DNA of 64,000 nt, from positions 1,178,001 through 1,242,000 of the forward strand of contig CP038130.1 of NCBI GenBank assembly GCA_004519485.1. The letters are read 5' to 3'. This DNA comes from Nannochloropsis oceanica (Eukaryota; Sar; Eustigmatophyceae; Eustigmatales; Monodopsidaceae). Numbering within the stretch: position 1 is the stretch's first letter; each line of letters begins with the position of its first letter. Shown in pieces: positions 4,172-50,663 of the stretch. The translations under genes were made by a program, and so were the position numbers. The notes below the pieces were generated by a model. That model saw nothing but the letters and a program-made list of their open reading frames with translations, was not told where the DNA came from and did no database searches.

Positions 4172-4417
4172 ACACAAAGCGGGTCTGCAGTTGTTATGAA
4201 AGAGCGTTGAATAATTAAGTGACAAGGCACGGATAAATGGACGAGAAAGCCCCGATTTCAAGCCAGAAAGGGGGGGACACAGGCGAAGAAAAGTTGCCAC
4301 GCACGTTGTGCTTGTTGGGCTGGCTCTTGATTCGTTCCGGGTCGGTTATAAGCCGTTTGGCCCATGCCCGGCAGTCAGTGAACTCACACCACACTCTTCC
4401 CGACTGACAGTGAAAGC
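4172..4417. promoter_or_regulatory. Divergent promoter of CRY-DASH and PH-like gene
   Basis: Only 246 bp separate the two start codons, so both promoters must lie here or overlap the genes. A TATA-like GGTTATAAG sits near 4345, oriented toward the plus-strand gene. No other motif was recognised. Confidence 0.5.
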
Positions 4418-5664: not shown

Positions 5665-6134
5665 ATTACAGTATAGGAAGGTTACAAATAAGAGGATGGT
5701 ACGGAATGCTATTGGCAAACACGTTACCCGGAGCTTCATTCCTTCTTCGCCACCTCAGCGTATTATTCTACGCTCCATGTTTTATTTTGTTCAGTTTTGC
5801 CTTGCCAACCCGTGATATTGTACTCACGAGTACATTCGCAATTTGTCCCGTGTCTGCCACTTGTTTTCACCACGTTTGACCTTCTTTTATTACCCGTAGG
5901 CGCAACAGCATCAGAGCACATAGCCCCTCGCGGTCCCACATAACACCACGCACGCACGAAACGAAACACATGGCCTCCCTGTGGCGGCCCCTCCGGCCCC
6001 AAGGCGCAAAAACAGCCCCCACTGCATCATTGCGCGTGCTGGCATCGTCGTTTCCCACCAATTTGACGGTACGTTGATCGTCGGTTCTCGGGCAGCATTG
6101 GCAGCTTAGGGAAATTCGCAGTCAGGCATATCAA
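5665..6134. other. Intergenic between two plus-strand genes
   Basis: Holds the 3' end of the PH-like gene and the promoter region of the PPR gene. No coding signal or repeat was recognised beyond the short duplicated AGTGAATTACAGTATA at its left edge. Confidence 0.5.
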
Positions 6135-10065: not shown

Positions 10066-10804
10066 TGTGAAGCGAGAGGCCTGCAGTTGGGGTTGTAAGG
10101 TGCCAAAGTGAGCGTGTTATGCGCTGTGGTGGAGATGTGTTTCTTATCATCGATTTAATCGCCTGAACTGCGGTCAGCGAGTCCGTTGCGATTCACACAA
10201 CCAGGTCACAGAGGCGTCGACAAGCAAAAAAAAGCGCTGCTTATGCGTGTATAAGAGAAAGCCAACCATAGAGATGGTGTGATACGTACGTGGTAAAGGG
10301 ACAAGGAACAGGCAAGCCTCGCTAGGCGCCAAACCTCTTCTCCCTTGCGTTTCGCCGCCACATTCCTTCCATTTGCTCCCACTCCTTGCGCGCCCAATTA
10401 CACGTATTGCATACAAACAACCACACCTAATCCCACTCTCACGCGCCAGGCGTGACCACCACGTGCACTACCAGGAACTATTGCATACGCCTAAACCACA
10501 GACCTGGCACCCAAACTGCTGCCTGTCTACGACCGCCACCAAGCTTGCCGCCTTAGCTCTTTGGGTCTACGTAACCAAATGAACGCATGGCGGACTAAGT
10601 CCCACGCTGCCCCGCGCCATCCATATGCATCGGGAACATTCTCTGAGATATCTTCAGATCGTTACAGCGAAATGTGCCTGCACTTTTGTTTTTCTTTCCC
10701 CGCTGCTTTTTCTGACACCGCTAGCCCACTCACCCCATCAACCCACGCACAGGTAGGAGGTCGAGCAGACGCCAAGAGCAATTCAAACCCACGAATCTGC
10801 AGTC
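10066..10804. promoter_or_regulatory. Divergent promoter region of p24 and F-box/LRR genes
   Basis: A 739-bp space between two divergent start codons. The sequence is mixed, without coding features, and short ORFs here show no family character. Confidence 0.45.
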
Positions 10805-12226
10805 ATGCCAATTGGAGGAGGTGCCCGTAAATCCTTTTGTACCGCCACTAAAGCCATAGCGGGCAAGCGGCGCCGGTCGCATGGACCTACCACGGTCGCT
10901 GTGGCTCTTCAACCCCGCAAGGTCGTAAAGCGCCGCTTGTCAGCCACGACTCAAAAGGAGCCACCACCCCGCGCCCGGCACCAGCGAGGCACCGGTATCG
11001 CCAGGAGCACCATGACGAGTAAGGCTACGAACAGCAACAAAGGGAAGCGTACGGAACACAACTGCAGTAGTGGCATAGGCAGCTGCTGCAGCAGCCATAG
11101 CCAGCGCTTCGGCTCGCGGTTTCCCGCGACAAGCACGACTAGCACCAGCGAGCCCGTGACCTTCAGCATGCTACCTGGAGACATTCAGGCGCGCGTCCTT
11201 TTTTCTGGTTACTTCGACTCGCTTTTCGTGTTGAACCGCCTGTCCCTAGTGAGCAAGCACATGTACCACATGGCTTCGTCTTGCTACAAAGAAATGGACC
11301 TCTCTCGCCTCCCTAAGCTCGGCATTGATGCCCTCAGCCACATAGAGTCTCGTTTCAAGGGTATCCGCAAGCTGGACATGTCATTTTGTGACGCTGTGAA
11401 TGACGAGGCGGTTATAAATCTTTTTCCTTTGGAAGGGACACTCACCAGCCTTATTCTCCGGGGGTGTCATGTCTCAGACATGGGCCTGGAAGCTATTGGA
11501 AAATTTACGCAGTTGGAATGCCTGGATATTTCCAAGCAGTATGAAGAGCAGAGCTTAATTGTGACGGATTATGGATTGGTGGCTTTGAGCAAGCTCCGAC
11601 GGTTGCGGGAGATCTCTCTGGCGTGGAATAAGTGTGTCACGGATGACGGGGTAGCCTCTTTGATTGGTGCGTCGCAAGGGGTCAAGCAGCTTCGCGTGTT
11701 AGACTTGTCGTGCTGCATGGGGTTGACAGATGCGGTGTGTGAGTCATTGGTAGGACAGCCGTTGGAGCGCTTGTCTTTTCTAGGTTGCCCCATGATCACG
11801 GACCAGAGCCTGGGCATGCTCTTTGCCAGCGAGTCCCTCTCCGCGCCCTACTCGTACTACCCCTACCATTATCCCGACCTTTCCCCCTCTCGCTCGTCAC
11901 AATCTCTTCCCGCCCTCCCTCTTACTCCTTCAGCTGTGTCTGCTGCAGGAAATACTCCGTTTGCTGCTACCCCGATCGCTGCAGCTCTGACCCGCTCTTC
12001 CTCCTCGCCCTTGCCCTCATCCTCTGCGGCGTCCTCATTCCCTACCAGCAGCATCACATCCCTGTCGCTGGCACACTGTGAAGCACTAACGGACGTCGGA
12101 GTGGAAATCCTGATGACGTTACCCAATCTGGTTGATTTGGACATGAGGGATTGTCGACGGCTGTCGGAGGAGGGAAGAAGCAAGCTACAGAAGTGGCTAC
12201 CAGTGGCGTCGGTGGGTTTGTCGTAA
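10805..12226 (+). CDS. F-box-like leucine-rich repeat protein (FBXL/AMN1 type)
   Basis: A single exon of 473 aa. Proteins of this build recruit substrates to SCF ubiquitin ligases. Residues 1-115 are basic and low in complexity. An F-box-like helix set follows at ~118-165 (FSMLPGDIQARVLFSGYFD, then LSLVSKHMYHMASSCYKEM). Cysteine-containing LRRs then run to the C-terminus (IRKLDMSFCDAVNDEAV; LTSLILRGCHVSDMGLEAI; LRVLDLSCCMGLTDAV; LTSLSLAHCEALTDVGVEI). Between the penultimate repeats a Ser/Pro/Ala-rich insert of about 75 residues (~340-415) interrupts the solenoid. The F-box is weak, so a plain AMN1-like LRR protein is the alternative. Confidence 0.8.
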   Translation: MPIGGGARKSFCTATKAIAGKRRRSHGPTTVAVALQPRKVVKRRLSATTQKEPPPRARHQRGTGIARSTMTSKATNSNKGKRTEHNCSSGIGSCCSSHSQRFGSRFPATSTTSTSEPVTFSMLPGDIQARVLFSGYFDSLFVLNRLSLVSKHMYHMASSCYKEMDLSRLPKLGIDALSHIESRFKGIRKLDMSFCDAVNDEAVINLFPLEGTLTSLILRGCHVSDMGLEAIGKFTQLECLDISKQYEEQSLIVTDYGLVALSKLRRLREISLAWNKCVTDDGVASLIGASQGVKQLRVLDLSCCMGLTDAVCESLVGQPLERLSFLGCPMITDQSLGMLFASESLSAPYSYYPYHYPDLSPSRSSQSLPALPLTPSAVSAAGNTPFAATPIAAALTRSSSSPLPSSSAASSFPTSSITSLSLAHCEALTDVGVEILMTLPNLVDLDMRDCRRLSEEGRSKLQKWLPVASVGLS

Positions 12227-12975: not shown

Positions 12976-15900
12976 TCACACGCTTTCCCTCCCTCCCTCT
13001 TCGGGCGACTCGACCGACGGCACGGGGGATACGGCAGTGGGGGCTGCCATCGCCCGCGCCGCCTCAAGCCTCTCCTTCAAGCTTTCCGCCAGCCCCCAAT
13101 CCAACCTCGAACACCGCAACGACCCCAACACCTTCTCAGGCAGCTCCCTCTCCTCCTCCCCCTGAATCAACACCGCCAACTCCACCACGATATTCTTGCT
13201 ATAGTCCCTCACCAATCCCAAGGTCCGTGATGCCATAATTGAACTCCCAATATCGATGCCCACCTCTAAGTACCCTGGACCAGACCAATACCGCTGCGTA
13301 AGCTTCTTCCCCAGCAACACTGGCTTGTTACCCACAGCAAAACTTATCATCCGAGGCCCCTCTACCATCGACGGAATGAGCTTGAATCGGGTATTTCTTT
13401 CCGCGTCGCTCCCCTCCAGGAACTCTGCCAGGAGCATCAAAAACTTCTTCTCCAGCTGCTTCGTCCTCATTCGCTCCTCGTCCATCTCTACTTCCTCTTC
13501 CTCTTCCTCGTCCTCTTCTTCGTCCTCCTCCCCCTTTTCCTCCTCCCCCTTTTCCTCCTCCCCCTTTTCCTCCTCCACTGACACTACCTGTCCCTCTGCA
13601 GCGACCGTAACAGCGGCGTGCATCTCCTCCCAATCCGCCCGGAAGCCTTTCGCTTCCGCTCTCCCCTGCAACCCTCCCCCCTCATCACCTTCCCTCCTTT
13701 GCTGCTCCGCCGCAGCCTCTACAGCAGCCGCCTCCCTTGCCCTCCTTCTCCTTACCCTCATCTGTGCCCTCTCTACCCCTTTCCTCGCCGCCCCACTCAA
13801 AGCAAAATAACACATCATACTACAAGGCGGGTTACCGGGTACTTGAAAATTCAAAATTAAAAGAAAGGGCGGGGGCCGCGAAGCCAGAAGCTGGCATCGA
13901 GTGTACACACCATCCAACCCCTGAAAAAGACCCGTCACATGATCTGCCCTTGGCGACAGCCCTGCACTTTCGACATCTAGAAGCTCCATGTGCACCAGCT
14001 CACACAAAGGCTGCGCCGCCTTCCCTCCCACCTTGATCCCGTCACTCATGTACGTCTCCCCTCGCACCTTCCACTCCGTCGTGGCATTGCCCCACGTCTT
14101 GTGGAAAGCCGGCTTCAAATCCCTCAAGCTCGACAATTGCTCCCTAATCACCAACGCCGTTACCTTCTCGTCTTCCTCCTCCTCCTCCCTCCCTCCTTTC
14201 CTCCTCCCCATCTTTCCTCCCTCCCTACCACCACCCCATCGTGCCTTGGCCCCCCCTCTGCCTCCTTCATCCCCCCCCCTGCCTAATGGCAAGGGAGGTC
14301 CAAGACCGGCCTCTGCCATTTTTCGCTGGAGAAAGGCCACCTGATGCTCGGCCGCGACGCGTTTTCTCACCTCTACTTCCGACACGGCGCGCGCCGCTTC
14401 TAATTCCGCCTGCAGTGCAGCCATTTCAACTCGGAGTTGAGTGTTGGGTTGCTGCTGTTGTTGCTGTTGTTGCTGTTGTTGCTGCTGTTGTTGGTGATGA
14501 TGATGATGATGATGATGTTGGCGATGATCGGTATGGAGGGAGGACATGGAGAAGGCGGCTGAGACAGCAGAGGGAAGGACGAGGGGGGTGGCCGTGGAGG
14601 ATGGGGACGAAGCAGTAGCCTTGGCCGGGGGAGTGATGCGATGCGGTGCTGCTAGAGCGTGTATTTGGCTACTCCCAGCTTTAGGGGAGCAATGGATCCC
14701 GTGACGACTGCTGCTGCTGCTGCTGTTTCTGTTGCTGTTTGTCCCTTGGTCGGCTCGCGAGTGGATCGCCAGAGGAGTGGGAAGAGGGGAAGGTGCAGCA
14801 GGCGCCCCTCCTCCTCCTTGTCCTCCTCTCCCTCTTCCTTCACTGCTTGCTTCAATCAGCTGATCTAGTGCATGGAGCGTCGAGGCCATGGTATGCTGGG
14901 TGGTGGGTGTCACCGCAAGCTGGTGCTGCTGCTGCTGCTGCTTGTGAGGTTGTAGCTGAGACCAATATTGCCGTTCCTGCAGATGCTGCTCGTGTCGCTG
15001 AGAGTAGTACAGCGACTGCTGATGCTGCTGTCCGTCCCCCATAATCAGTATTCCCCCTGTCGCTGGCACCGGAGAGTCGGCTAGAGGAAAATGCTCTGTC
15101 TCACCTACCTCGACAAGACAAGGCGTGCTCGCGGCCGACGCCCCCGCGGACGCAGCAGCAGAGGCAGAGGCCGTCACTCCATCCACCGCTTCACTCAACA
15201 TTCGCGTAATGCTCTGCTTCTCGTGCCGGTATCGATCGATCTCTACCTCCATCGTCGCTTCCTTGTAGTCCCTCGCACGCAACTTGCTCTTATACGCCGC
15301 CAATTCTCGCTTCAACCCCACCAGAAGCCGATCATGCCGCTGCTTCTCCTCTCGCAAAGCCACCAGCTCTTCCTCCAACATTTCCACCTGTCGTTGAAAG
15401 GCATGGAGCTCCTCTGCTTGAAATGCGTACTGGTCTTCCGTCAGGTGCAACTTCTCAAGAATCTGTCCCATTAAGAGGGACTGGGCATAATCTAAACTGT
15501 TGGTGCTGCTGTTATTGATCGCGTGACTGGTTAAGGGGGCGGATGAATGGACAGCGTGAGAGCATAGAACATTGCACGAAGCTATGGAGGAGGAGGGGGA
15601 GGAAGAGGAGGAGGCAGCGGCAGGGGTGTTGTCGGTTGAATAGAAGGGAATGATAGAGGAAGGAAGAAAACCGCTAATATACGAGTATAACCCCTGCTTT
15701 TCAAGTTCATTGGCCGGCGCCGCTGTTCCCACCTCCATACTGGTGCTGCTGTCAGCTGCTACTGCTTCTGTGGTTACTGTTTCTGTTGTTGTCTTTGCTG
15801 CTGCTGCTGCTGTTGCTGCTTCCTTGGCCATCACATAGTTCGACATCGGCATGGGCGTCGGGGCTAGCATCCTTGCCCCATGGCCTGTCGAGTTCGATCC

Positions 15901-16332
15901 ACTCTTTCCTTTCCCACCACCGCGCATTTCTTCCTGTCTGACACCACAACTCCCGCTGCCATCAGCATCGCACCCCACCACCTGGGCAAGCAGGCGCTGC
16001 AACGCTTCCACGTGGTGAGCCGTGTGTCGGCTCTCGCCATGCATCCGCGCAATTGTCTGAGTTAAATCCTTGATCTTCCGGCTTTGCTCCAGAACAGTCG
16101 TCTGCAATGCTCCGATCAATGCTTCTTGCTGTGCGAGGTCTTCTTGTTGCCGCCGGACAGCGCTGGCTTCGCTCCCCGGTGCAAGGGGTGTGCGTGACGC
16201 AGGACCGGCATCGGACGAGGAGAGAAGGGCGGGGCTAGAGGACTCAACCTGCTGGTGCGGATGTTGTCTGTGCTTTTCAAAGGATGTCTGACGACGCATT
16301 CCCCGCTTCCACAGCCGCTTAACGTAGGACAT
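12976..16332 (-). CDS. Coiled-coil protein with C-terminal EDR2/DUF1336 domain
   Basis: A single exon of 1118 aa starting at the ATG at 16332. The C-terminal third (~residues 740-1085) matches the plant EDR2 C-terminal domain (DUF1336), usually found beside lipid-binding START/PH domains. Recognisable pieces are FHKTWGNATTEWKVRGETYM, FQVPGNPPCSMMCYF, FKLIPSMVEGPRMISFAVGN and GPGYLEVGIDIGSS. In place of START/PH there are two long coiled coils (~45-110 and ~285-385) and disordered linkers, with a Gln run preceded by a His run at about residue 610-640. An acidic KGEEE tandem insert splits the DUF1336 region at ~residue 925-960. The domain is inferred to bind lipid or membranes; the coiled coils suggest a scaffold or tether. 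Confidence 0.85.
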   Translation of the reverse strand: MSYVKRLWKRGMRRQTSFEKHRQHPHQQVESSSPALLSSSDAGPASRTPLAPGSEASAVRRQQEDLAQQEALIGALQTTVLEQSRKIKDLTQTIARMHGESRHTAHHVEALQRLLAQVVGCDADGSGSCGVRQEEMRGGGKGKSGSNSTGHGARMLAPTPMPMSNYVMAKEAATAAAAAKTTTETVTTEAVAADSSTSMEVGTAAPANELEKQGLYSYISGFLPSSIIPFYSTDNTPAAASSSSSPSSSIASCNVLCSHAVHSSAPLTSHAINNSSTNSLDYAQSLLMGQILEKLHLTEDQYAFQAEELHAFQRQVEMLEEELVALREEKQRHDRLLVGLKRELAAYKSKLRARDYKEATMEVEIDRYRHEKQSITRMLSEAVDGVTASASAAASAGASAASTPCLVEVGETEHFPLADSPVPATGGILIMGDGQQHQQSLYYSQRHEQHLQERQYWSQLQPHKQQQQQHQLAVTPTTQHTMASTLHALDQLIEASSEGRGRGGQGGGGAPAAPSPLPTPLAIHSRADQGTNSNRNSSSSSSRHGIHCSPKAGSSQIHALAAPHRITPPAKATASSPSSTATPLVLPSAVSAAFSMSSLHTDHRQHHHHHHHHQQQQQQQQQQQQQQQPNTQLRVEMAALQAELEAARAVSEVEVRKRVAAEHQVAFLQRKMAEAGLGPPLPLGRGGDEGGRGGAKARWGGGREGGKMGRRKGGREEEEEDEKVTALVIREQLSSLRDLKPAFHKTWGNATTEWKVRGETYMSDGIKVGGKAAQPLCELVHMELLDVESAGLSPRADHVTGLFQGLDGVYTRCQLLASRPPPFLLILNFQVPGNPPCSMMCYFALSGAARKGVERAQMRVRRRRAREAAAVEAAAEQQRREGDEGGGLQGRAEAKGFRADWEEMHAAVTVAAEGQVVSVEEEKGEEEKGEEEKGEEDEEEDEEEEEEVEMDEERMRTKQLEKKFLMLLAEFLEGSDAERNTRFKLIPSMVEGPRMISFAVGNKPVLLGKKLTQRYWSGPGYLEVGIDIGSSIMASRTLGLVRDYSKNIVVELAVLIQGEEERELPEKVLGSLRCSRLDWGLAESLKERLEAARAMAAPTAVSPVPSVESPEEGGRESV
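14449..14520 (-). repeat. CAG/CAT microsatellite coding polyHis-polyGln
   Basis: A trinucleotide tract inside the EDR2-like gene. On the coding strand it reads a His run followed by about 16 Gln, with mixed CAA/CAG codons. It is probably length-variable between strains. Confidence 0.85.
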
Positions 16333-18141
16333 GGTGCTGGTGTCTTACGATGGGAGCTGGGGAGCGAAGCGGCAGAGATTCACAGCCAGCAGGAGCGGCT
16401 GCTTGGCTTGTCGAGTCGACTTACCGGGTTGCCTCGTGATCCCCGCCACCACAGTCAGTGCCAGAAGCAGAATGTTTAGCCTGTTTCAGTATTAGAAGGT
16501 GTGGCGAGACTGAATGAAAGGGCCAGCAAACGCATAACGCAAAAAAGCCAGGAACAAGGAACATTTCAGTCGCCTTGAGTGCTGCCACGCAGACGCACAC
16601 ACAATCACAAATAAACACGAAACGCACACATACACATACCGTCGAGGTATGCGTGACACATATATAGCGTTGCCGTTCAACTCCACACTACATGAAGGGA
16701 CGAGCCGGTGCTTTCTTCTGCTCACTTGTGGTCTCGGGAGACGTTGGACTTAATACTACAGAAGGCGTCGGCGAGCAGCGCGGAGGCGAAAAAGTCACAG
16801 GCGGCGAGGGAGGAGGTTGGGACCTGAGACCCCGACGCAACTCCCAAAGCGCTCAGAAAAGGCAAACCACATCAGAAACTTTATAGTCGGACGGATGTCA
16901 TGTTCTTTTCCTAAAAAAATGTATATATAAAAAACTCTCTATATATATGGAAAAAACTCCTTGCTTCAGTTTTTTGCTTTCTCCCCATGCGAAAGTGCTT
17001 GCTCCTACATTACAGTCGTCACACTGCCATAGGTGCTGGGCGGTCCGGAACTTTTTCTGTCCTCTTGAATATTATGCTGCAGAAGCCCCTGTCTCCTGTG
17101 TGGGAACAGCGAATCCCAATGTCGCGCCTGGCCAGGTACTCACAAGTCTTCATTTTCTCCGGTGCAACTCGTTCTAATCACGTGTGCCAATCATTAGTCA
17201 GCGCGCAGGAGCAAGCACCATTCCTGTCCACCTGAAAAATTGTAACTCGGTTTATTGGTCCCCTTGATTTCTCGTGAAAAAACATTGCGTGGAGGACCAT
17301 TCCCTCGCTCAATCGCTACTGAGTGCCAACTGGGCCGCCGCGGGCTAGGTAATAAAAAACTGAAGAGCTCCACCTTCCTACCAGCCGACCCAAAATATCA
17401 GTAACTGTACCGTTAACCTCTGTATCTCTATCTGCGAAAGCGTAATATCCCCCTGAACTCTCCTCCTCACCCTCTGGTGTGCAGGTGTGAAGCTCTGGTG
17501 CTGGTGTGCCCCGCTCACCCGGCATGCCCGATCACTGAGTATGGGGCAGGATTTGCGGGCATATCCTCGGACCACACAAATCCTTGCTAATTTTTCTCGC
17601 ATATGTTTGACAAACCTATGTCACCAAATTTATCCCATGTCTTGCAAAGCGCTGCAGCACCAATCGCCCCCCCCAACGGAGTCCCAATACCCTGGGATCC
17701 TCCCCTCAATACAATCGCAATGTGAAAGCCGCAAAATTAAGTTATCTGTGACCAAGAGTCGCCAGTTATATGGCGGCTTCTCAGCAGTGTGGAGAAGTGC
17801 CTGATTTGGTGGGGGCGGGTCATAGTAATGTGAGCGGGGGCGGTGCGGTGAGTTGAAGCAGGATGCACGCTGCCTCGAAGGAAGGGGTGGAGGCCTGAGG
17901 TCGCTCTGCTGAGATAAATGGACGGCACTTGGTATCCAGAGTGCCGCAAAGGTTATCCCTGTGGTTGGATGGCGGAACTACGGATACTTGTATGGGTACA
18001 AAATGTGAGGGGGAAACAGCAGTAGCCGGGAGGTTATTCGCAAATCACAATTTCACGCCTGTCCTCACACGCTCGAACACACCCGCTTACAGGTATGCCA
18101 CCCTTCTTAGCGCCCTCCTCGTGATCCTTGCCACGACCATT
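16333..18141. other. Large divergent intergenic region
   Basis: 1.8 kb between the EDR2-like gene (-) and the TTLL12-like gene (+). AT-rich ATATAT stretches lie near 16918-16950. Open frames here (for example 16692-16886) have no protein-like composition. The frame of the TTLL12-like gene stays open back to 17929, with another ATG at 17992, so the last 150-200 bp could be coding. No RNA gene was recognised. Confidence 0.45.
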
Positions 18142-21100
18142 ATGAGCATTTCCTCCAAGTCGCCATCCCTGCCCCTCCATCTACGCGCAACGCTCGCCCA
18201 GTTGGTCGAAGCCCGATATACACACCAGAGGGATGAGGTCGCGGGTTGGCGGGGGCTGCTCGAGGAAAGAGAATGCGACGATGGCACACGTTACTATATT
18301 GCCACGCGGGATATCCAACCGGAAGAGACGGTGTTCCTCATAGACCACCTCTGGTGTGCTACCCTTTTTTCTACGCGAGCCCAGTTGCAAGCCCACCCAC
18401 TCCCCCGCGGCAATCTGCGCTACATTTGCGGGCTGGAGCGGGAGGAGGAGGACGACGAGGATCAAGACCTGACAGGCATGTCCGATGGTACGGCTACTGC
18501 CGGCAGCTGGGACGACGAGGCCGACCTGGAGGACGAGCAGCTGCCGGTCTTGGCCACTGACGGGGAAATTGAACAATTTCTTGCCCAGCATACGGAAGAT
18601 GGGGAACTAGACCTGGATGGCTTGATCGATCGACGTTCTCGGCGGAGTTTAATATTACTCGAAACACTGCTTGCCGCCATTCCTCGCATCATACCTGACC
18701 TTCGAACATTCAGTCTGCGCGACACTCATTTGGACGGCACAGTAGCCCCGGCTCTGCGGGCCTTTTTACAGGCCATGCCGAACCTCAAGGCAGTTTGGTT
18801 GAATGGGAACCCCGCCCTCTTCAACGAATCTGAAGATCCCTTTGCTTCTTCTATTTTCGATGAAGACATGCTTCAGCAGCAATTTACATTGGTCAATCGA
18901 AAGCTGACCCCGGCCTATGGGGCCTGGACTCTTTCTTACCTGGGTGACGAAGGTTGTGAGCACGACCGGAGAGAGATAGAGGAGGATAAGCAGGGAATCA
19001 AGGAGGAGCAAAAAGAGAAAGCGAAGGCGGAATGGCGTCCCACCACCGCTATCTTGACCCTCGACTTGTCCGGTCGTCTCGTGCCTTTCCTGAAGCCTGC
19101 AGCTTTCGCGGTAGCCGTGCCGAACCTTCGCAGGCTGGACTTGAGAGATAACCCGATATTGCTTGCTCCTGCTGCTGCTGCCTCAAGTGCCTGGAAAGAC
19201 GTCCTTCTGCCCACGTTGTGTGTCCTCTCTTGCCTCGAGTCTCTCTGGGTAGACCCGCCGTGTGGTAGGAATTCTGGAGGTGATGGTGACACAGGCACCA
19301 GGGCGGAGGGAGAGTCGGAGCGAGCGAGAAAGTGGGAGGTAGAGGTGGCCCTCGCCGTCCCCCAGCTTCGATGGATCAACGGCCGAAGTATCACACGCCT
19401 CACTGATGATAGGGTGGTGATGGGCAGGGAGGGTGGGTCGGTTGCGGAGGGCATTGACAAGCTTTTGTTGGGGATGTGGCCCCACGTGGAGCCCATGCGA
19501 CTGGCGGCTTCTGAACGGCACCACGCCGAGGTGTATTGGTACGCCATGGATCTACCAGGTCAAGGGATTGCACACGCCTTTTCTTCTTCCCCTGGGGCAC
19601 ATTTGGCGTTTGTTCCCATGCGCGATCGGCGGTTGGGGATAACTTTTTCGGTTGCTTGGCCGTTGAGGGCCATCAAGGCCGGGGAGGTTGTGCGAAGGGA
19701 TGCTTTTGCGAGTTTTCCGTTTTTATCATCGTCGCCTTCGTCATCATCTGTTTCTGAAGAGAGAATAGTGACGGAGAAGGGAGAAGAGGAAGAGGAGGAG
19801 GAGGAGGAGGAGTTTCGAGCGCAGGTACTGCGCGCCTTGTGGGGGCAAAGGCTGTGGAAGAGGCAGAGGGGCCTCGCATTGCAGGAGCAGCAGCAGGAGC
19901 AGCAGCAGGAGCAGCAGCAAGTGAAGGAGACGCTGCAGCTTAAGACTTTCCAAAAGTTTCACGCCAAGAAAGACTTTCAAGCGCCAGCTGCGGCGACAGA
20001 GTCCTCACCTCCCCCTCCACCAGTCTTCCCCCTCAGTCAGGGCAGTACGTGCACGCCTCCGCCGCAACCTCTCTTGATCTACACAGACATGCCTGTGGTG
20101 CAGTCAAGCTTGGGTTTAACTGATCTATTTGCCTTCACTGAGGACCCTCGCGAAGCCGACATTTTGTGGGCCACGCCTGCCTTCCTTTCTGCCCCTACCT
20201 CGCCCATTCGGCGCCAGACGCAGTGGCGAGCAACCCTACCCAACCTGGATCGCGTGGACGACAAGTGCGAGCTGGTCAAGCTCCTCACCAACCAGTCGCA
20301 TTCCCTTCAAGAAAAGGACTCTAATCCGCCCCCCGCAGCACTGCCATGGCTTCCCCGCACTTACTGCCTCCCCGAGGACTTACCCTGCCTCCTCCAAGAG
20401 TGGGCGAAACTTTCCTCCTCCCCTTCCTCCGCAACCTGGATCTTAAAGCCTCCCCACCTTGCCCGTGGTTGGGACATTGTTCTCACTCGCTCCCTTCCCT
20501 GTGTCCTCCGCCATCTCCAAGCCTCGGGTAGGCTGGCCGTCTCTAATTACCTCCCTTCACCAGACCTGTGGAAAGACGGGCACAAATACGATTTGAGAAT
20601 GTACCTTCTTCTCCTCAGCCCATCCCTCGTCCTCATCCACGACCACTTTCGGGTTCGACGAGCAGCGCGGCCTTATTCCATGGCGTTGGATGATTTAGAA
20701 GATTTAAGTCGGCACCTGACTAACACAACCTTGGGGCTGGACGAGGATGGGAAGGAAGAAGGGACGGAAGGATGGGGAGGATGCCCGACGGAGACGGTGT
20801 CGTGCCTGGAGTTTGTGGGAAAATGGGAAGAATTGCATCCTGGGAGAGAGGAGTGGAAGATTGTTCGGCGGAGGATCGAGGGGATGTTAGCCGAGTGCTT
20901 TGGTTTGCTTTCAGTGGAAAGGGGAGGGAGGGATGGTAGGTCTTTGGGCTATGATGCGTACGGACGAGCGTTGGTGGGCGTGGATGTGTTGCTGGACCGC
21001 GAGTCATTGGCGCCGCACTTGATTGAGATCAATGCATCGCCCAACGTACAGGGTATGCTCTCGGAACGGCCGAGCTTCATGGACGAGGTCTTTGCGGCAG

Positions 21101-21153
21101 CGTTTGTGGAGGGTGGTGCTGAGGGAGGTCGAAGTGGCTTTCGTCCTCTATAA
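18142..21153 (+). CDS. TTLL12: Tubulin-tyrosine ligase-like protein 12 (TTLL12-like)
   Basis: A single exon; 1003 aa from the ATG at 18142. TTLL12 is a divergent member of the tubulin tyrosine ligase-like family, implicated in tubulin and histone modification and generally thought to lack classical ligase activity. The N-terminal part contains the family FLIDH-W motif (VFLIDHLWCATLFSTRAQLQ). A leucine-rich stretch follows (LKAVWLNGNPALF; LRRLDLRDNPILL). An acidic and Gln-rich linker (~residues 535-610) precedes the ATP-grasp TTL domain (~640-990): WILKPPHLARGWDIVLTRSL, YDLRMYLLLL and the closing LIEINASPNVQGML. The longer frame from 17929 needs a TTG, and the ATG at 17992 is possible, but 18142 fits the family best. 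Confidence 0.88.
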   Translation: MSISSKSPSLPLHLRATLAQLVEARYTHQRDEVAGWRGLLEERECDDGTRYYIATRDIQPEETVFLIDHLWCATLFSTRAQLQAHPLPRGNLRYICGLEREEEDDEDQDLTGMSDGTATAGSWDDEADLEDEQLPVLATDGEIEQFLAQHTEDGELDLDGLIDRRSRRSLILLETLLAAIPRIIPDLRTFSLRDTHLDGTVAPALRAFLQAMPNLKAVWLNGNPALFNESEDPFASSIFDEDMLQQQFTLVNRKLTPAYGAWTLSYLGDEGCEHDRREIEEDKQGIKEEQKEKAKAEWRPTTAILTLDLSGRLVPFLKPAAFAVAVPNLRRLDLRDNPILLAPAAAASSAWKDVLLPTLCVLSCLESLWVDPPCGRNSGGDGDTGTRAEGESERARKWEVEVALAVPQLRWINGRSITRLTDDRVVMGREGGSVAEGIDKLLLGMWPHVEPMRLAASERHHAEVYWYAMDLPGQGIAHAFSSSPGAHLAFVPMRDRRLGITFSVAWPLRAIKAGEVVRRDAFASFPFLSSSPSSSSVSEERIVTEKGEEEEEEEEEEFRAQVLRALWGQRLWKRQRGLALQEQQQEQQQEQQQVKETLQLKTFQKFHAKKDFQAPAAATESSPPPPPVFPLSQGSTCTPPPQPLLIYTDMPVVQSSLGLTDLFAFTEDPREADILWATPAFLSAPTSPIRRQTQWRATLPNLDRVDDKCELVKLLTNQSHSLQEKDSNPPPAALPWLPRTYCLPEDLPCLLQEWAKLSSSPSSATWILKPPHLARGWDIVLTRSLPCVLRHLQASGRLAVSNYLPSPDLWKDGHKYDLRMYLLLLSPSLVLIHDHFRVRRAARPYSMALDDLEDLSRHLTNTTLGLDEDGKEEGTEGWGGCPTETVSCLEFVGKWEELHPGREEWKIVRRRIEGMLAECFGLLSVERGGRDGRSLGYDAYGRALVGVDVLLDRESLAPHLIEINASPNVQGMLSERPSFMDEVFAAAFVEGGAEGGRSGFRPL

Positions 21154-29519: not shown

Positions 29520-30456
29520 TTGTGAAGGGAGTATGTGGGAACATGAGACGTAGACGTATTTGCTTGTAGATATTGGAGAGAAATTAATCCAGTACGGCGT
29601 GATTGCCGCTCACAATTGGTTTGCGAGTAGGGATGGATGGACGGTGAGGGGGAGGGAGGGAAGGATTCAGTGATTTGTAAATGAGACGAAAAGAGCTCTG
29701 TCGATGAGGGATGTCTTTTGGAAAATCATCAAGGGAAGAGTAGTGGCCGCCAGGTGAGGGACTGAAATAATGTATGTCGATAAGAAATTGTATTTTTTTA
29801 AAATTAACGAAGACACCAAATCCAAACCGGGTTATACGCAGTTTACACTCAGCTGTGCAGCTATGCTCATTTATACCTCTTATGAAGGGGGCTATGTGCG
29901 CACCCCTGACTTTCGCTGGGAAGTCCGTGGAGGTGGGATGGCTGCTGTGCGGCTCCCTATATTTTGCGCAAAACGGAATGCCCTCCCCATCCGTTTCCCC
30001 ATCTTGGACACCTTTGGAGGTGCTGAATGGCATGGCACGTGCAAGCTCTAATACTTGGTCACACAAGTCTTCTAGTTGTTAAACTTAGCAAGTGTTTCGA
30101 CGGACCACAACTCTTGGATGGGAGTGACTTGTACGCTTTCTCTGTTTTGCTTGCTGGCCTCCTTGCGGAGGTTTCAGGCGGATTTTAAAACCCTGGTGCC
30201 TGATCCAAAATGCACTATACCACTGTGCATCCAGATGCTTTACGAAGATGTGGTCATCGTCATTGGGCTCTTTGTGCACGTGATAACGTGCCATAACAAC
30301 GCCTCTCGACGCCCTGGTAACATGGGCCACTAACACATGTGCTGCACATTTTTCAGTGAAATAGAACGGAGGAGGGAAGTGTGGTCTTGCAGAAAGGTTC
30401 ATTAATCAGAGGGACATGCGTATTGCAAGCAGGAAAAATAAATCATGCGCAAAAAA
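29520..30456. other. Gene-poor interval, content unresolved
   Basis: Between the COX20 stop and the 5S rRNA gene. Several short frames on the minus strand (29584-30066, 30085-30402) have locally protein-like composition but no recognised motif and no shared phase. They could be a worn-down gene or chance. Nothing can be named with confidence. Confidence 0.35.
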
Positions 30457-30457
30457 A
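30450..30457 (-). terminator. Pol III oligo-T terminator of the 5S gene
   Basis: A run of seven A on the plus strand (T on the RNA strand) directly after the 3' end of the 5S rRNA. Confidence 0.85.
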
Positions 30458-30575
30458 GAATCGACACCCGACCTTCCAACCTGGTCACCCACGGTAGTAC
30501 TATTCGGGCTCGAACGCGCTTAGCTTCGGAGAGCGGACGGGTTCCGGCGTATTCCACGTTGAGATGGCCGATTCT
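30457..30575 (-). rRNA. 5S ribosomal RNA
   Basis: Read on the minus strand, this 119-nt stretch has the layout of eukaryotic 5S rRNA. The two ends pair (AGAATCG with CGATTCT, helix I). An internal CTCCGAAGCTAAGCGCG (helix III/loop, A-box region) precedes AATAGTACTACCGTGGGTGACC, the box C of the Pol III internal promoter, and then the helix V closing stretch. A run of seven T follows immediately, as expected for Pol III termination. It is a single solitary copy among protein genes. I recognised it from the conserved AAGCTAAGC, TAGTACT and GGGTGACC words. Confidence 0.94.
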
Positions 30576-44092: not shown

Positions 44093-46473
44093 TTAAACGT
44101 CCTTTATCATCACTGAATCATTGGCCCGCTCTGCTAACCAACCCTTAACATATGCCCTGATCTCCACCAAGCCGGCCTTGGCCCCCATAATAACCTTATC
44201 TTCTTCCAATGGAGGCCGCGTTGCTGCGTAGTCGTCTAAAATCTCCGCCCCTCGTACTTCATCTCTCCGCTTGCTAGCTTCCACCGCCCTCACCACCCGC
44301 TCTTCAATTACGACCAAGTCCTGAAGCAGATTTGAGATCGAAGGCATGTTTAGTGGGTCTTCCTCTGCCCCCTCGTCTTCACGCGAGGGAGCAACATCCG
44401 CATTTCGTGCTCCTTCCCCACCATATTCGGCCCGGAGAACTGACCGCTGGTGCCACCACATGTCGTAGTCTTCAACATCATTTCTTCCCCCTCTCTCCTC
44501 TCCCTCCTTTCCCCCCCGTCTTTCCTTCACTAGATGATCAAACAGGCCCCGCAAGGCATACCTTTTGATCCACTCCGTGTACGTTGCCAACCCTTCCTCT
44601 GCCCCCTTCCAAGTCACCATGTTGGCACCCGCACCTTCCAATTCATTCGCGGTGAAAAATGCTCCCCCATTTCCTTCCTCCCTCCCCCTCTCCCTCCCCA
44701 CTGCACGCCGCAACCGCGCGCGGGCCTCGATCATCGCATCAACAATATCCGGTCGAAACACCGGCTCTCGCACGAGGCGCTTATGCCTCTGCGACTTGCT
44801 CCTCTGCATAAACTTGGCTTCATTCCTAAGCACTGTATAAGGGCTTGCACGCAAGACCCAAGCCGGTCGCAGGATATTGGAGAGGAGAAAGCTGCTGCTA
44901 CTGCTGCTTCCATGCATTATGTTCCCCAGTACTGTCGCCAGATATCGCGCATCCCGGCACGCACTTACAAGCGAGAAGGGGAAATGCAAGCGCTGCTGCT
45001 CCAACGTCGTGTCGGCGGCCACCAGGGTGTAGGGGGAAGCGGAAAGGTTGACGGGTAGTTTCACCGACGACCCCAATCCGAAAAAGACGCCTTCGCCCAA
45101 CAGACACTCCTGATCGGCCGCGCGGCCTGTGTGGTTGCTCCCGATCTTAGCGCCGTACGCGACGTTTCCCCGACCTTTGGGCCAGAGCGCCGCGATAAGG
45201 AGGGACTGGTGGTGGAACCCCACAAAGGGACCTAGCAGGCTGTGGTGGCACTCCCCAGTGGCGACTCCACTGTCCGGACAAGCAATGACATGGCAGCACT
45301 TCCCCTCAGTCTCGACACTGCTGTGTTCCATCAGGAGAGAGTCGCGGACTATGGCGTGCCCGCTTACCTTGACTCCTGGCTGCAGAATGCTCCTTTGGAC
45401 GATGGAACCGCCCGTGACATAAGTTCGCCCAATACGACCTGTCAATATAGCGGTGGAGTCCACCTCGCTGTTCTCCACAACGGCGCGTGGGCCAACAAAT
45501 GATGCACTAATGCGGGGACAGCTGCGGACACTCGCGTTCCGGGCAATTATAGCGCAGAAGGATGTGTTGGTTCTACGGAGCGCATTGAGATTCAACAGAT
45601 GCCGGATGCCGGGCAGGTAGTCCTCTTGTACCCATGCCATGTGCGCTTGATGATCGATGGTAGAAGTAGTGCCCGAGGAGAACGATGAAGACGAAGGAGA
45701 TGGAGATGGAGTACACGTCGGGAAGGCCTGGGCCAGGACCTCTTGCATTGACGAGTTATGGTGGATGACGACAGGGCGCCCTCGGATCTCGGAACCTACG
45801 CGGACCGTGTGGCCGCACGAATACGGCGACGAAATGTGATCATATGAGCCGTTGCTTCCTTCTATCGTGCCATTTCCCACGACCTCTGCTCCCTCTTGAA
45901 TCACGACATTGGAAAGGCACTTATTCCCTATGATTTTTATACCCGGGCCAGTAACTATGCAATCTATGAGAGTAGAGTCAAACAAGCCACATGGCTCCTT
46001 CTCCATTTCATCATAACTGTGGATGTTGCCGTGTAAAAAGATGTCGCCATAAAACGAGCAGCGGACAATGCGCGGATGACTGTTTTCCTTGTCTTGGGGA
46101 AGGAGTGTGTTCTCAGTTCTCACAAACACCCTGCACCACTCTTTCGATACGCAGCCATGAGCCTCTAGGTACTCTATCTCATCCCGCGAAATCGCACGGT
46201 ACGATTGGTCGCTAATCTCTAAAATAAGAAATAAGAAAATTAAAAAAGGGGGAGGGAGTTAGAATGATGAGTTTTATGGCTATGATGAGTTTGATGGCTT
46301 GTTGCTATAGAAATAAGCGTTCAGAGACAGGGAGCGGGTAGGGGGGAGGAGGAGCCGGGGGACAAGCAAGCGCAAACGAAACGTGACTTCTACTATTACG
46401 TACCTGCACAGCTTTTAAGGGTTTGCAAAAAATCATCATCCTCCGGCGCGAGCCCTCCGGTTGAGTTCGCCAT
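44093..46473 (-). CDS. DUF4954 left-handed beta-helix protein
   Basis: Two exons, 46473-46404 and 46218-44093, 731 aa; the junction falls in a Glu codon (SCA then EISDQSYRAISRDEIEYLE). The family is known to me mainly from Bacteroidetes, about 650 aa long, with hexapeptide (left-handed beta-helix) repeats as in sugar-nucleotide acyltransferases; no activity has been assigned. The start YRAISRDEIEYLEAHGC and WCRVFV fits the family opening. Repeat-like stretches follow (CIVTGPGIKIIGNKCLSNVV; GSIVQRSILQPGVKVSGHAI), then GPFVGFHHQSLLIAALWPKG and LPVNLSASPYTLV, which match the conserved HHKSTLLIAG and YL-region of the bacterial proteins. A charged C-terminal helical region of ~200 residues contains inserts. 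A role in sugar or lipid acyl transfer is a guess. No targeting signal was seen. Confidence 0.8.
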
Positions 46474-47063
46474 TTTGGCTCTGAAGCTGGAGTACGCGGT
46501 GTGTGGGTGCCGGTGCTGCGGGGGAGGAGCGCGAGGCGGGAAGCAAGACGAAGAGGCACGTGTGGCTTGACGACTTGAAGATAATGCGGCGAGTTCCCGG
46601 GTGTAGACACACTGGAAGCCTGTGAGTTACGTAGGTTGCAGGAATGCTATTGTGAGTGTTTGTGGTAGTGTGAGTGGATCGGCTGGCAAGCAAGACGGGC
46701 TCGCGGCCTTCATCTGGCTCATTTTTATTCCTCCTCCGAGTCATCATCACGTCATCCCCTCCGAGCCCATGCTAAGCAATGCCGCCAAACTCGTGTTAAT
46801 TCAATCACATGGACCGCCCTTCACCCTCCAAGCCCACGCTCGTCACTCATGCGATGACGTCTCCACTATTTTCACACACGCTATAGGCATCTTGTTTGCG
46901 CAGCCGTCCAGCTTACCTCACCCAGAAAGTCATCTCGCTAAGAGCACCCAGAGCGGCAGCGGCTCCTTTTCCCCTTCCCACGCCGTGCTTCTATCACCAC
47001 TACGAGCAGCAGCACCACCACAACGATAAGATTCACAGCCGGGAGCGCGATAAATGCGCCCTT
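46474..47063. promoter_or_regulatory. Divergent region between DUF4954 and Sec14-transporter genes
   Basis: 590 bp between opposite starts. The frame of the downstream gene is open from 46896, so an earlier ATG there is possible but lacks protein character (Ala/His-rich). Confidence 0.45.
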
Positions 47064-50000
47064 ATGGATTATGAAAGCAGTCGAACCAGTCGACAACCGA
47101 GTCAGCACCAGCGGCATCATCTGCACCCACAAGAGGACTCCTTGGAACTAGGAGGCCGTTTACCCACCATCAATCCAGGCGTGACCAAGCCGTTTACGAC
47201 CCGTTCTTCCTCTGCCACAGCACCACATTCATCTTCTACAACAGTTTCGCCGGCGACAGCGCCAGCACCTGCAGCAACGAGAGACACGTGCATTCGGCGC
47301 TTCGTCAACATGCTTCTCGAAGGCACTACAATGCAATTTAGTCTCCTTTGTCTCGATGCCCTCGTCATTGCTGCCCTCTTGCCCGAGCTCCCTGCGCTTG
47401 CTGCCTCGATGACTGATGCCCCTAAAAACGTCCCGTTGGTCGTGGCGTTAATAGTCGGCGGCCTCTTTCTAGGGCGGGCTGGAGGGGGGCTTTGGTGCCA
47501 TTACCGTTCCCAACCCTCCAGCAACAACACTCATCACGACGGTCATTACCATCAGAAGCCTTTTTCTCTTAAGACTGTCCTTGTTGCTGCTTTGGTCTAT
47601 AGCGTGGTCTGGTTCGTCCAAGGCTTTGTGAATCGCCTCTCCGTCTTTATCATCGGACAATTCGTCATCGGCTTCCTGATAGGCAAACACTCCATCTTTA
47701 AAAATAGGGCGCACCCCGGTACCACCCTCTCCTCCCCCTCCTCATCCTTCCCCGTCCTCCTCGGGGCCATGATCGGTGTCCTGATCGGCGGGTTTTTCGA
47801 CGCCCAGCACACCCTCAACCCGTGTCCGGCAGACGAGGGGATAGCTTGCACCCGATGGGCCGATGGGGCGCCCATGGCCCCGGTAGGTGTAGCAGTTTTC
47901 GCTCTTGCAGTAGGGATAGGAATTTTGTCGTCAGTGGCAGCCCAGTGGCAGCGCGCGGCCGCCGCGGCGGCGGTGGCGCAGAGGGAGAGGAGGGAGGAAG
48001 GGAGGGAGGGGGGGGGGGAGTATCGACTTTTGAGTGGAGGAGGGAGTGGGGCCATCGCGGCGACGGCGAGTCGGCGCATGAGCGAGGAGGAGGTGATGGC
48101 AGTTTTGCAGGAGGCGGAGGAGGGAGGTAGGGGGGGCGGGTATGTGCAAACGCCCCATCATCATGTGCATTTGTTGCGGATTCCCGAGCGGTATGTGAAG
48201 GGCTGCAATGGAGACATGGAGGAAGCGGCGAGGCGGTGGAAGGACACATTGGCCTGGAGGGAGGAGCAGGGAATCGATCGTATACTGCTGGAGCCACAGA
48301 GAAATTTTGCATTGATTAAGGAGTGTTATCCGCATTTCCTGCACCGGAGGGATAGGGGGGGACGGCCGGTGTATTATGAGCTGCTAGGGTAGGGAGGGAG
48401 GGAGGGAGACGGGTTGTCACTCCGAAAGGTACCGCCTGACCTTCGTATTTTGCTTCATTTCTATTGAACACGAACAGGCAGATTAACTTGAAGAAGCTGA
48501 AGGCGCAGGGCGTGACTTTGGACGAGGTGGTTCGATACTACATCTTCCTCACTGAGTAAGCAGGGGGGGCAGGCGGGACGAAGGGACGGAGGGACAGACG
48601 GGCGGAGGGTTAGGTTGATGTTTATACGAAGCTCATTTATCCTACCGCTTCATTGCACTCGACTATTTTATGGATCTGTTATTCACTGAATCTTCATGCC
48701 CGTCTCCTACCCCCATTCAGGTATATTTGGAACAAACTCCAGCCCGAGGATGATGAGCGTGGGGCGATGATCTCTGTCCTAGACGTGGAGAATGTGGGCA
48801 TAATGGATTTACGGGGGGATGCGCTGGAGTTCCTTAAGGCGGCGAGTAAAGTGGTGCAGCTTCATTACGTGGAAAGGTCGCATAAGATGTTTATATTGAA
48901 TGCGCCTTCGTGGTTTAATGTGCTGTGGAAGGTAGGGAAGGAGGAAGGGAGGGAGGGAAGGAGGGAAGGGGGTAGAGGAGGAAATATATGTAAATCAGAT
49001 TTGTCGACGATGTCCAGTATGCGTATTTACCCTCCCTCCCTCCCTCCCTGTGCAGGTCATCGCCCCTCTCCTCCATGAGAACACCCGCCAAAAAATCAAT
49101 ATCTTGGGGAAGGACCACAAGGCCGTCCTGGATGTCATTGACGCCAGCTGCTTACCAGTGAGGTACGGAGGGACGGATGACATGGCCCTGGGGGAGGCGC
49201 CGGAGGAGGTAGACTTCAGGGCGTATCTGGATGACGTGCTGAGGGGGAAGGTGGGGTGGGAAGGAGGGGATGAAGAGGAGGGAGGGAAGACGACGACGGC
49301 GGTAGTTGCTGCTGGTTGTGGTAGTGGTGGTAATAATGGTGGAGGAGGTGGAGGGGGAGGAGAAGGAGGAGGAGGATTGCCAACAGCAGCAGCGGCACCA
49401 ACAGCAGCAGCAGCACCACCCGCAGCAGCACCAGCACCACAACCGGCATCTTCCTTGTGGGGCGCTCGCTTAGTAGGGGTGGGTCAGCGCGTGGCGGGAG
49501 GGATGGTGGGAGGCTTCAAGGCGCTCAGGCCCGCTTTTTTGACACCCTTGTCAGACGCCCAGAAAGCAAATCTGGGAAGGGAGAATAGGTTTGTGTATGA
49601 CGAGGGGAGGAGACAATGGATTCTGATTGAGGAGGAACCGGAGGAGGAGGAGGTGGACGAGGAGGAAGAGGTGGAGGCTGAGGAGGAGGAACGGTTGGTT
49701 CGTGCCATCCAGGCGGCGCACGAGGTGGGGGGGAGGAGCAGTAGTATTAGAGGACGTTTAGCGGCCGTTTTGAGGGGAGGGGGAGGGAAAGAGGGAGCAA
49801 GGAACAATGCGGACGCAGTGGCGGCCGCAACAGCAGCGCAGGCGCGGAATGTGGAGGAGTTGGAGGCAGGGAGGAAGGAGGAGGAGGAGGAGGAGGAGGA
49901 GGAGGAGGAGGAGGAGGGGGGGGAGGAGGAGGAAGAGGGGGAGAATAAAGCGTCTGCTGCAGCAGCAATAGTGGAGGGGGAGGAAGTGGAATCAATAGTG

Positions 50001-50663
50001 GAAGATCGAGAAGAGCTGGCCAGGACAAGGAGCGGTTCGATTCTGCTGCTGCTCCTGGTGGCTTGGCGGGCGCTCGCTCTCTCCCTCCTCCTTGTCCTCC
50101 CCCTGTGGTTGGCAGATCAGCATGGTAGTGCCCCTTATGAGATCGCCTTATTGCTTTTCTGCGGAGGAATTGTAGCTACTGCCCTGTGGGCCCTGATCGA
50201 GAGGACGCATCTCCTCCCTCCCTTCCCCACCTGCCTTGCCACACTCGCCTCCCTTGCCGTGGCATGTCTGTTGCTCGGGCCTCTCAGCAGCAGCAGCAGC
50301 AGGCATCCAGAGGCATACAGGGAGGCGGCGGGACGGGGATTGAGTGTCGTAATAGCAGCATTTGCCGTCCTGATGATGGGGGGCTCCGTCTCGTGGGCAG
50401 TACTTTTGTCTATGGCTTTGTTTGGTAAGGAGGAGAAGGGGGCCAGGGATGATCTTCTTCCCTCTCTCCTCCTTGCCGATGTGCTGGGCGCGGTGCTTGG
50501 GCCGGTGATCTACTCGGCGTCGATATCGTACGGAGGGGAGGGGGGAGGGGAGGCTACGTGGGTGAGTGTGGTTGGATGGGTGGGGGTGGGGAGTGTGCTG
50601 CTTGTTGGAGGATTGGGAAAGTCTCTGCCTCGGCCGATGATGACGACGGAGGGGGGTAGATAG
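47064..50663 (+). CDS. Twelve-span transporter-like protein with inserted Sec14 (CRAL-TRIO) domain
   Basis: Four exons, 47064-48388, 48478-48555, 48721-48931 and 49056-50663; 1073 aa. Six hydrophobic segments lie at ~residues 89-297 (for example VALIVGGLFLGRAGGGLW and FPVLLGAMIGVLIGGFF). A full Sec14-like CRAL-TRIO domain follows at ~340-595: the N-terminal helix EEAARRWKDTLAWREEQGID, GRPVYYELLGQINLKKL, VLDVENVGIMDL, FILNAPSWFNVLWKVIAPLL and INILG. An Ala/Gly- and Glu-rich linker (~600-860) leads to six more segments (~865-1065). Six plus six spans with a long central loop is the plan of a major facilitator, so the Sec14 domain sits where the cytosolic loop should be. Sec14 domains exchange phospholipids or phosphoinositides; lipid-sensing or lipid-handing transport is inferred. 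Exon phases all agree, so the fusion is not an artefact of joining two genes. Confidence 0.85.

Follow-up and report, generated by a model that had tools for sequence, protein, structure and literature searches.

Does the stretch 47064..50663 encode one protein in which a Sec14 lipid-exchange domain interrupts a membrane transporter, and what might such a protein do? The stretch lies within a window of 64,000 nucleotides, the whole piece of DNA that was analysed, on contig 4 of a Nannochloropsis oceanica genome of 29.26 Mb in 32 contigs. A sequence-only reading had proposed four exons in consistent phase that encode six membrane spans, a complete Sec14 domain and six further spans, which is the plan of a major facilitator superfamily (MFS) transporter with the lipid-binding domain in its central loop. 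The features of the locus, by position in the window, are as follows.

47064..48388, + strand: exon 1, residues 1-441 plus 2 bases; N-terminal tail, spans 1-6 and Sec14 start; open frame, donor GT
48478..48555, + strand: exon 2, Sec14 domain; GT-AG borders, homology over the junctions
48721..48931, + strand: exon 3, Sec14 domain; GT-AG borders, homology over the junctions
49056..50663, + strand: exon 4, Sec14 end, linker, spans 7-12 and stop; open frame, acceptor AG
47274..48008, + strand: MFS-like first half, helices 1-6, residues 71-315; from the exon 1 model
48183..49172, + strand: Sec14/CRAL-TRIO region in exons 1-4, residues 374-577, Pfam core 421-577; PF00650, E 1.3e-30
49563..49625, + strand: linker motif KANLGRENRFVYDEGRRQWIL, residues 708-728; five invariant positions, profile above shuffled level
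49689..49721, + strand: second linker motif ERLVRAIQAAH, residues 750-760; Q757 in 19/22
50040..50618, + strand: second half, spans 7-12, residues 867-1059; from hydropathy and 40.2 bits against the second-half profile of the relatives

The spliced exons form a single frame of 1073 amino acids with 0 internal stops, and all three introns (3/3) have GT-AG borders. The ATG at 47064 is the earliest ATG in the translated open frame 46887-48392. Moreover, the protein aligns without gaps over every junction with the relatives P0001-P0003, P0005, P0014 and P0029, and the earliest gap in the alignment with the same six members occurs several residues past junction 2. Judged from splice sites and homology, the splicing of this gene as four exons is confirmed, and the consistent phase that had been proposed is borne out. 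The order of six spans, Sec14 and six spans within one protein was recovered as well, with six hydropathy segments before the CRAL_TRIO match and six after it.

Several other features were recognized in the window. The neighbour on the opposite strand, 44096-46258 (-), has a DUF4954 match (E 5.4e-11), and a second match, to a GlmU-like hexapeptide, is barely under the cut-off. An open reading frame of 1122 codons at 12979-16344 (-) contains an EDR2_C domain (E 3.8e-49), and a protein of the tubulin-tyrosine-ligase family at 17899-21150 (+) matches SET_TTL and, weakly, LRR. The remaining features are open reading frames for a DNA photolyase (3104-4342, -), a PPR-repeat protein (6078-8957, +) and an LRR-repeat protein (10757-12223, +), and a 5S rRNA gene at 30456-30575 (-; Rfam, 84.2 bits).

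Protein searches, each of which scored approximately 8000 candidates so that the count of relatives is a lower bound, found at least 31 distinct database proteins. At least 20 of these were judged to be family members because they contain the linker motif as well as the Sec14 domain (P0001-P0009, P0014-P0023 and P0025); with the window protein and P0029, a paralogue in the same genome, they form the set of 22 rows used below. The oomycete proteins P0010, P0011 and P0012 were rejected as members, since their Sec14 domain is related but is preceded by two spans and the linker motif is absent; P0013, P0024, P0026-P0028 and P0030-P0032 were also excluded. Species names are attached to members from Scytosiphon and Ectocarpus, which we take to be brown algae, and from Phaeothamnion and Choristocarpus, which are ochrophyte stramenopiles according to a taxonomy look-up; the remaining members have none. 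The sequence-only reading had suggested a search of stramenopile genomes for this domain order, and the family members found include proteins of all four genera. Where members have descriptive names, these are hypothetical, unnamed or CRAL/TRIO only.

The paralogue (G000:C16, L030:2125-5589) lies on contig 16 in a one-exon open reading frame that runs for 1155 codons between two stops. It has the domain order of the window gene, with a Sec14 domain (E 3.1e-21), both linker motifs and eight segments above the crude hydropathy threshold. In four further Sec14 stretches of this genome (L027, L028, L029 and L031), no linker motif scores higher than shuffled sequence, and the whole domain order occurs in none of the open reading frames. 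It was also noted that the paralogue keeps the helix-4 arginine discussed below and has lost the equivalents of the Sec14 residues E207 and T236, which is the reverse of the window copy.

These relatives bear on the possibility that a pair of neighbouring genes, or a mis-spliced model, has been mistaken for one protein. The gene model was derived solely from splice sites and homology, and when a half is counted as present at 60% or more of the residue number of the corresponding part of P0014, most of the first half is absent from 5 of the 20 database relatives (P0001, P0002, P0003, P0006 and P0016) and the second half from 1. These five proteins may be cut models or genuine short forms. However, the first half is found within single proteins in 15/20 relatives and the second in 19/20. 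The Sec14 domain is divided among all four exons, and exons 1 and 4 each encode a portion of Sec14 along with one membrane half; therefore, separate genes for the two halves are unlikely. Furthermore, because the paralogue has the same order in one exon, it provides an independent check on the model of the window gene. We consider an annotation artefact to be highly improbable.

The origin of the fusion is less clear. In a tree of the Sec14 domain, 20 of the 22 rows fall into one group with moderate support (89/80), within which the window protein and P0001-P0003 form a firm set of four (99/97), and P0025 and P0029 form a separate group with a long-branched Sec14 locus (L006) of the same genome. 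The family label requires three changes on this tree, and the well-supported branches force at least two. Given this split of the 22 rows and the two or more forced changes, the tree does not establish that the fusion arose only once. No description of an MFS-Sec14 fusion was found in the open-access literature searched, which is weak evidence of absence because subscription papers fall outside that literature, and none appears in the available portions of PMC7335047, PMC11503967, PMC13036492 and PMC7886885. The first of these reports 40 CRAL-TRIO genes in a diatom genome (PMC7335047).

The Sec14 domain of the window protein is complete, since the Pfam match to CRAL_TRIO at residues 421-577 covers profile positions 3-153 of 153. 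It is also the only Pfam family to exceed a cut-off when the whole protein is scanned. The best solved relatives by sequence are Arabidopsis SFH5 (E 8.8e-24) and yeast Sec14 (1aua, E 4.8e-22), and the pocket residues were placed in the 22 members by alignment to 1aua. We take R65, E207, T236 and K239 of yeast Sec14 to be phosphatidylinositol-binding residues, and S173, T175 and R208 were followed as further positions of the pocket. Among the 22 members, the positions of R208 and K239 are kept in all, those of E207 and T236 in 20 each, and the position of T175 is T or S in 22/22. Ser is found at the S173 position in just 3/22, and Cys stands at the R65 position in 20/22. The equivalents of E207 and T236 are lost in P0025 and P0029. 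According to the accessible part of one study, Sec14 proteins have a phosphatidylinositol-binding barcode to which E204 of Sfh5 belongs, and changing this residue effectively abolishes binding; the same source describes a Sec14 protein that binds haem instead and whose barcode is intact (PMC7462610). Phosphatidylinositol is thus no more than a fair guess as the ligand, and for the main group only. The ligand of the paralogue may differ.

The membrane halves are more difficult to classify. Against a profile of the first halves of the relatives, the first half of the window protein scores 29.5 bits, and the best of 1970 scored shuffles reaches 12.8; the second half scores 40.2 bits against the second-half profile, with 19.2 for the best of 1995 shuffles. 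The first half of the paralogue scores 18.8 bits when taken alone, which is above every control, and the full-length paralogue scores 4.1 bits, which is inside the control range. The second-half profile gives the paralogue 24.4 bits (second half alone) and 25.7 bits (full length). Span counts by crude hydropathy vary among the relatives (4+6 in P0014, 3+6 in P0019 and 6+3 in P0008).

Models of the whole relative P0014 and of the first half of the window protein (exon 1) were examined for an MFS fold. The predicted structure of P0014 has twelve helices in two halves of six that pack as one MFS unit, and VIA-align matches both halves to MFS structures. In the exon 1 model, VIA-align recovers the MFS fold of the first half, more weakly than in P0014. 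The 6+6 plan with Sec14 in the middle, and the packing of the hydrophobic halves as a single transporter fold, are thus borne out in the predicted model of a relative, and for the first half of the window protein less strongly. A Foldseek search with the whole P0014 model gave only CRAL-TRIO proteins among the 50 matches listed; the case for an MFS fold is drawn from VIA-align and the profile test.

Foldseek with the window exon 1 gave a best E of 0.012, with FLVCR first. A weak profile match between the first half and FLVCR1/2 (E 8e-4 to 0.011) agrees with an MFS fold, but chance matches of hydrophobic chains, such as the acetylcholine receptor (E ~0.6), stand lower in the same list. An identity as a choline transporter (FLVCR) is not claimed, because FLVCR leads the Foldseek matches for exon 1 but not the VIA-align lists. 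An identity as DUF4010 was rejected; its match (E 0.01 for the whole protein and 0.0012 for the first half alone) is below the cut-off and occurs in 1/10 members.

Pfam MFS profiles matched none of the 20 proteins scanned at a limit of E 10; these were 10 members that include the window protein, 9 further members and the paralogue, with P0017 and P0020 left out, and the filters of HMMER drop most matches above E ~0.1 despite that limit. The Pfam check suggested in the sequence-only reading therefore upheld the complete CRAL_TRIO domain and returned no match to an MFS profile. Divergent MFS halves are able to evade Pfam detection. On the predicted models, we would assign the protein to the major facilitator superfamily through its fold and not through a sequence family.

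Residues of the helices were counted in the 17 rows that have a first half. We take an acid in helix 1, an arginine in helix 4 with a glycine four residues on, motif A between helices 2 and 3, and the helix-5 sequence GAMIGVLIGG to be sequence hallmarks of the MFS. In helix 1, which is LDALVIAALLPELPAL in the window protein, Asp or Glu occurs in 13 of the 14 members with a residue there, and the paralogue has Asn. Arg occupies the helix-4 position in 15/17, the exceptions being the window protein (Gln) and P0025 (Phe), and a Gly follows four residues after this position in 17/17. Helix 5 of the window protein is GAMIGVLIGG, whose glycines are partly common to the members (12/16, 9/17 and 4/17). 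Motif A is reduced to a remnant, with G in 14 and R in 9 of the 15 members with a residue there.

Such a pattern could also belong to a protein in which the MFS part is dead for transport and serves only as an anchor that holds the Sec14 exchange domain, with the linker motif, in position at a single membrane. Among the 13 members that hold both halves, the mean pairwise identity is 54.4% in Sec14 and 51.5% in the linker motif, whereas the first and second membrane halves average 21.7% and 21.1%; the invariant columns of these four regions number 34, 6, 2 and 1, respectively. Conservation as poor as that of the membrane halves would also fit a membrane anchor, as would the Gln that replaces the helix-4 Arg in the window copy and the reduction of motif A. 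However, the predicted fold of P0014 retains twelve helices, and a pure anchor has no obvious need for the helix-4 Arg, the Gly that follows it or the acid of helix 1, all of which are kept in most or all members counted. We consider a transport-dead anchor to be unlikely, albeit the most serious competitor of a working transporter.

The linker motif is situated between Sec14 and span 7, and its residues A709, L711, G712, N715 and W726 are identical in 22/22 members. A profile of the motif from 21 members, among them the window protein but not the paralogue, was run on 4065 open reading frames from the parts of the genome that were analysed, and only the window gene and the paralogue exceeded the best shuffled score. 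The motif matched no Pfam family in our scans, and it probably serves for docking or targeting. The best match beyond these two genes is the locus of a Sec16-like protein of the same genome (TPR_Sec16, E 1.6e-11), in which ADLGEKMEAYFDKERNRWVFPG has a pattern similar to the linker motif. At this locus (L010, G000:C27:321171-321650, minus strand), the stretch that was analysed ends near ADLGEKMEAYFDKERNRWVFPG. The linker motif might accordingly be an element of the Sec16 C-terminal type, and the protein mainly an organizer or client of ER exit sites; the C-terminal region of Sec16 is described, in the part of the source available, as binding Sec12 and interacting with Sec23 (PMC3275590). However, the match scores 8.4 bits (E 0.33), which is not significant because shuffled open reading frames score up to 9.3 bits. 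The similarity is a lead at most, and a Sec16 origin of the motif with a role centred on ER exit sites appears improbable.

Taken together, the evidence supports the interpretation made in the sequence-only reading, and we consider it probable that the protein is a twelve-helix transporter of MFS fold whose loop between helices 6 and 7 houses a lipid-binding Sec14 module, with lipid loading that would be coupled to transport. The basis of this reading is the gene structure predicted from splice sites and homology, the domain order, the relatives and the paralogue, and the predicted fold of a relative, from which the coupling is inferred. The full Sec14 domain with its kept equivalents of E207, T236 and K239, the predicted MFS fold with its hallmarks, the same order in the paralogue, the moderately supported group of 20 rows in the Sec14 tree and the PATELLIN2 precedent described below count in its favour. 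The poor conservation of the membrane halves, the Gln at helix 4 of the window protein, the Cys at the R65 position, the rare Ser at the S173 position, the lack of Pfam MFS matches, the modest Foldseek result for exon 1 and the relatives that lack most of the first half count against it.

The halves of an MFS protein rock in the course of transport, and the cytosolic loop from helix 6 to helix 7 connects them. By analogy with these proteins, the loop with Sec14 would be on the cytosolic side, where the Sec14 pocket could take a lipid (phosphatidylinositol or another lipophile) out of the cytosolic leaflet. Because Sec14 would be linked to both rocker-switch halves, its loading could be coupled to the transport cycle in two ways: the loaded state may gate the transport of a different solute, in which case the domain senses lipid, or the lipid itself may be presented to the cavity of the transporter. 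We believe that gating is more likely than hand-over.

A stronger version of hand-over holds that Sec14 extracts a specific lipid or lipophile and passes it directly to the joined MFS cavity, which flips or exports it, and that this arrangement is an old ochrophyte invention. SPNS2 is an MFS protein that moves lipid, and the transport of lipids by some MFS proteins is the only observation that helps direct hand-over; we regard this version as doubtful. If it were true, then lipid transfer and lipid transport would be combined in one polypeptide.

Sec14 proteins link lipid metabolism with membrane traffic; the substrates of MFS proteins are solutes and, in some cases, lipids. With the two in one chain, at the loop that joins the moving halves, lipid control of a transporter becomes directly testable. 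Lipid hand-over from the loop to the transporter, if it occurs, would represent a new way of moving lipids through a membrane, and if the domain merely senses lipid, then the regulatory design would still be new.

Among known systems, the MFS transporters NorA, SotB, VMAT2, SPNS2 and FLVCR1/2 resemble the predicted fold of P0014 in both halves and that of the window protein in the first half, and the family has a similar pattern of helix-1 acid and helix-4 Arg. Sec14 and the plant SFH phosphatidylinositol transfer proteins, which are soluble or peripheral, share the complete CRAL-TRIO domain and the equivalents of E207, T236 and K239 (each in at least 20/22 members); in contrast, the domain of this family is built into a membrane transporter and usually has Cys at the R65 position. 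The SPX-MFS phosphate transporters also combine an MFS protein with a cytosolic ligand-sensing domain, SPX, which senses inositol pyrophosphates; SPX is fused at the N-terminus, whereas Sec14 occupies the central loop here. The iron transporter IRT1 is not an MFS protein. In Arabidopsis, its intracellular variable region is bound by PATELLIN2, a SEC14 protein, which provides a precedent in trans for a SEC14 protein that acts at the intracellular region of a transporter, with two separate proteins in place of the one chain found here (PMC10152663).
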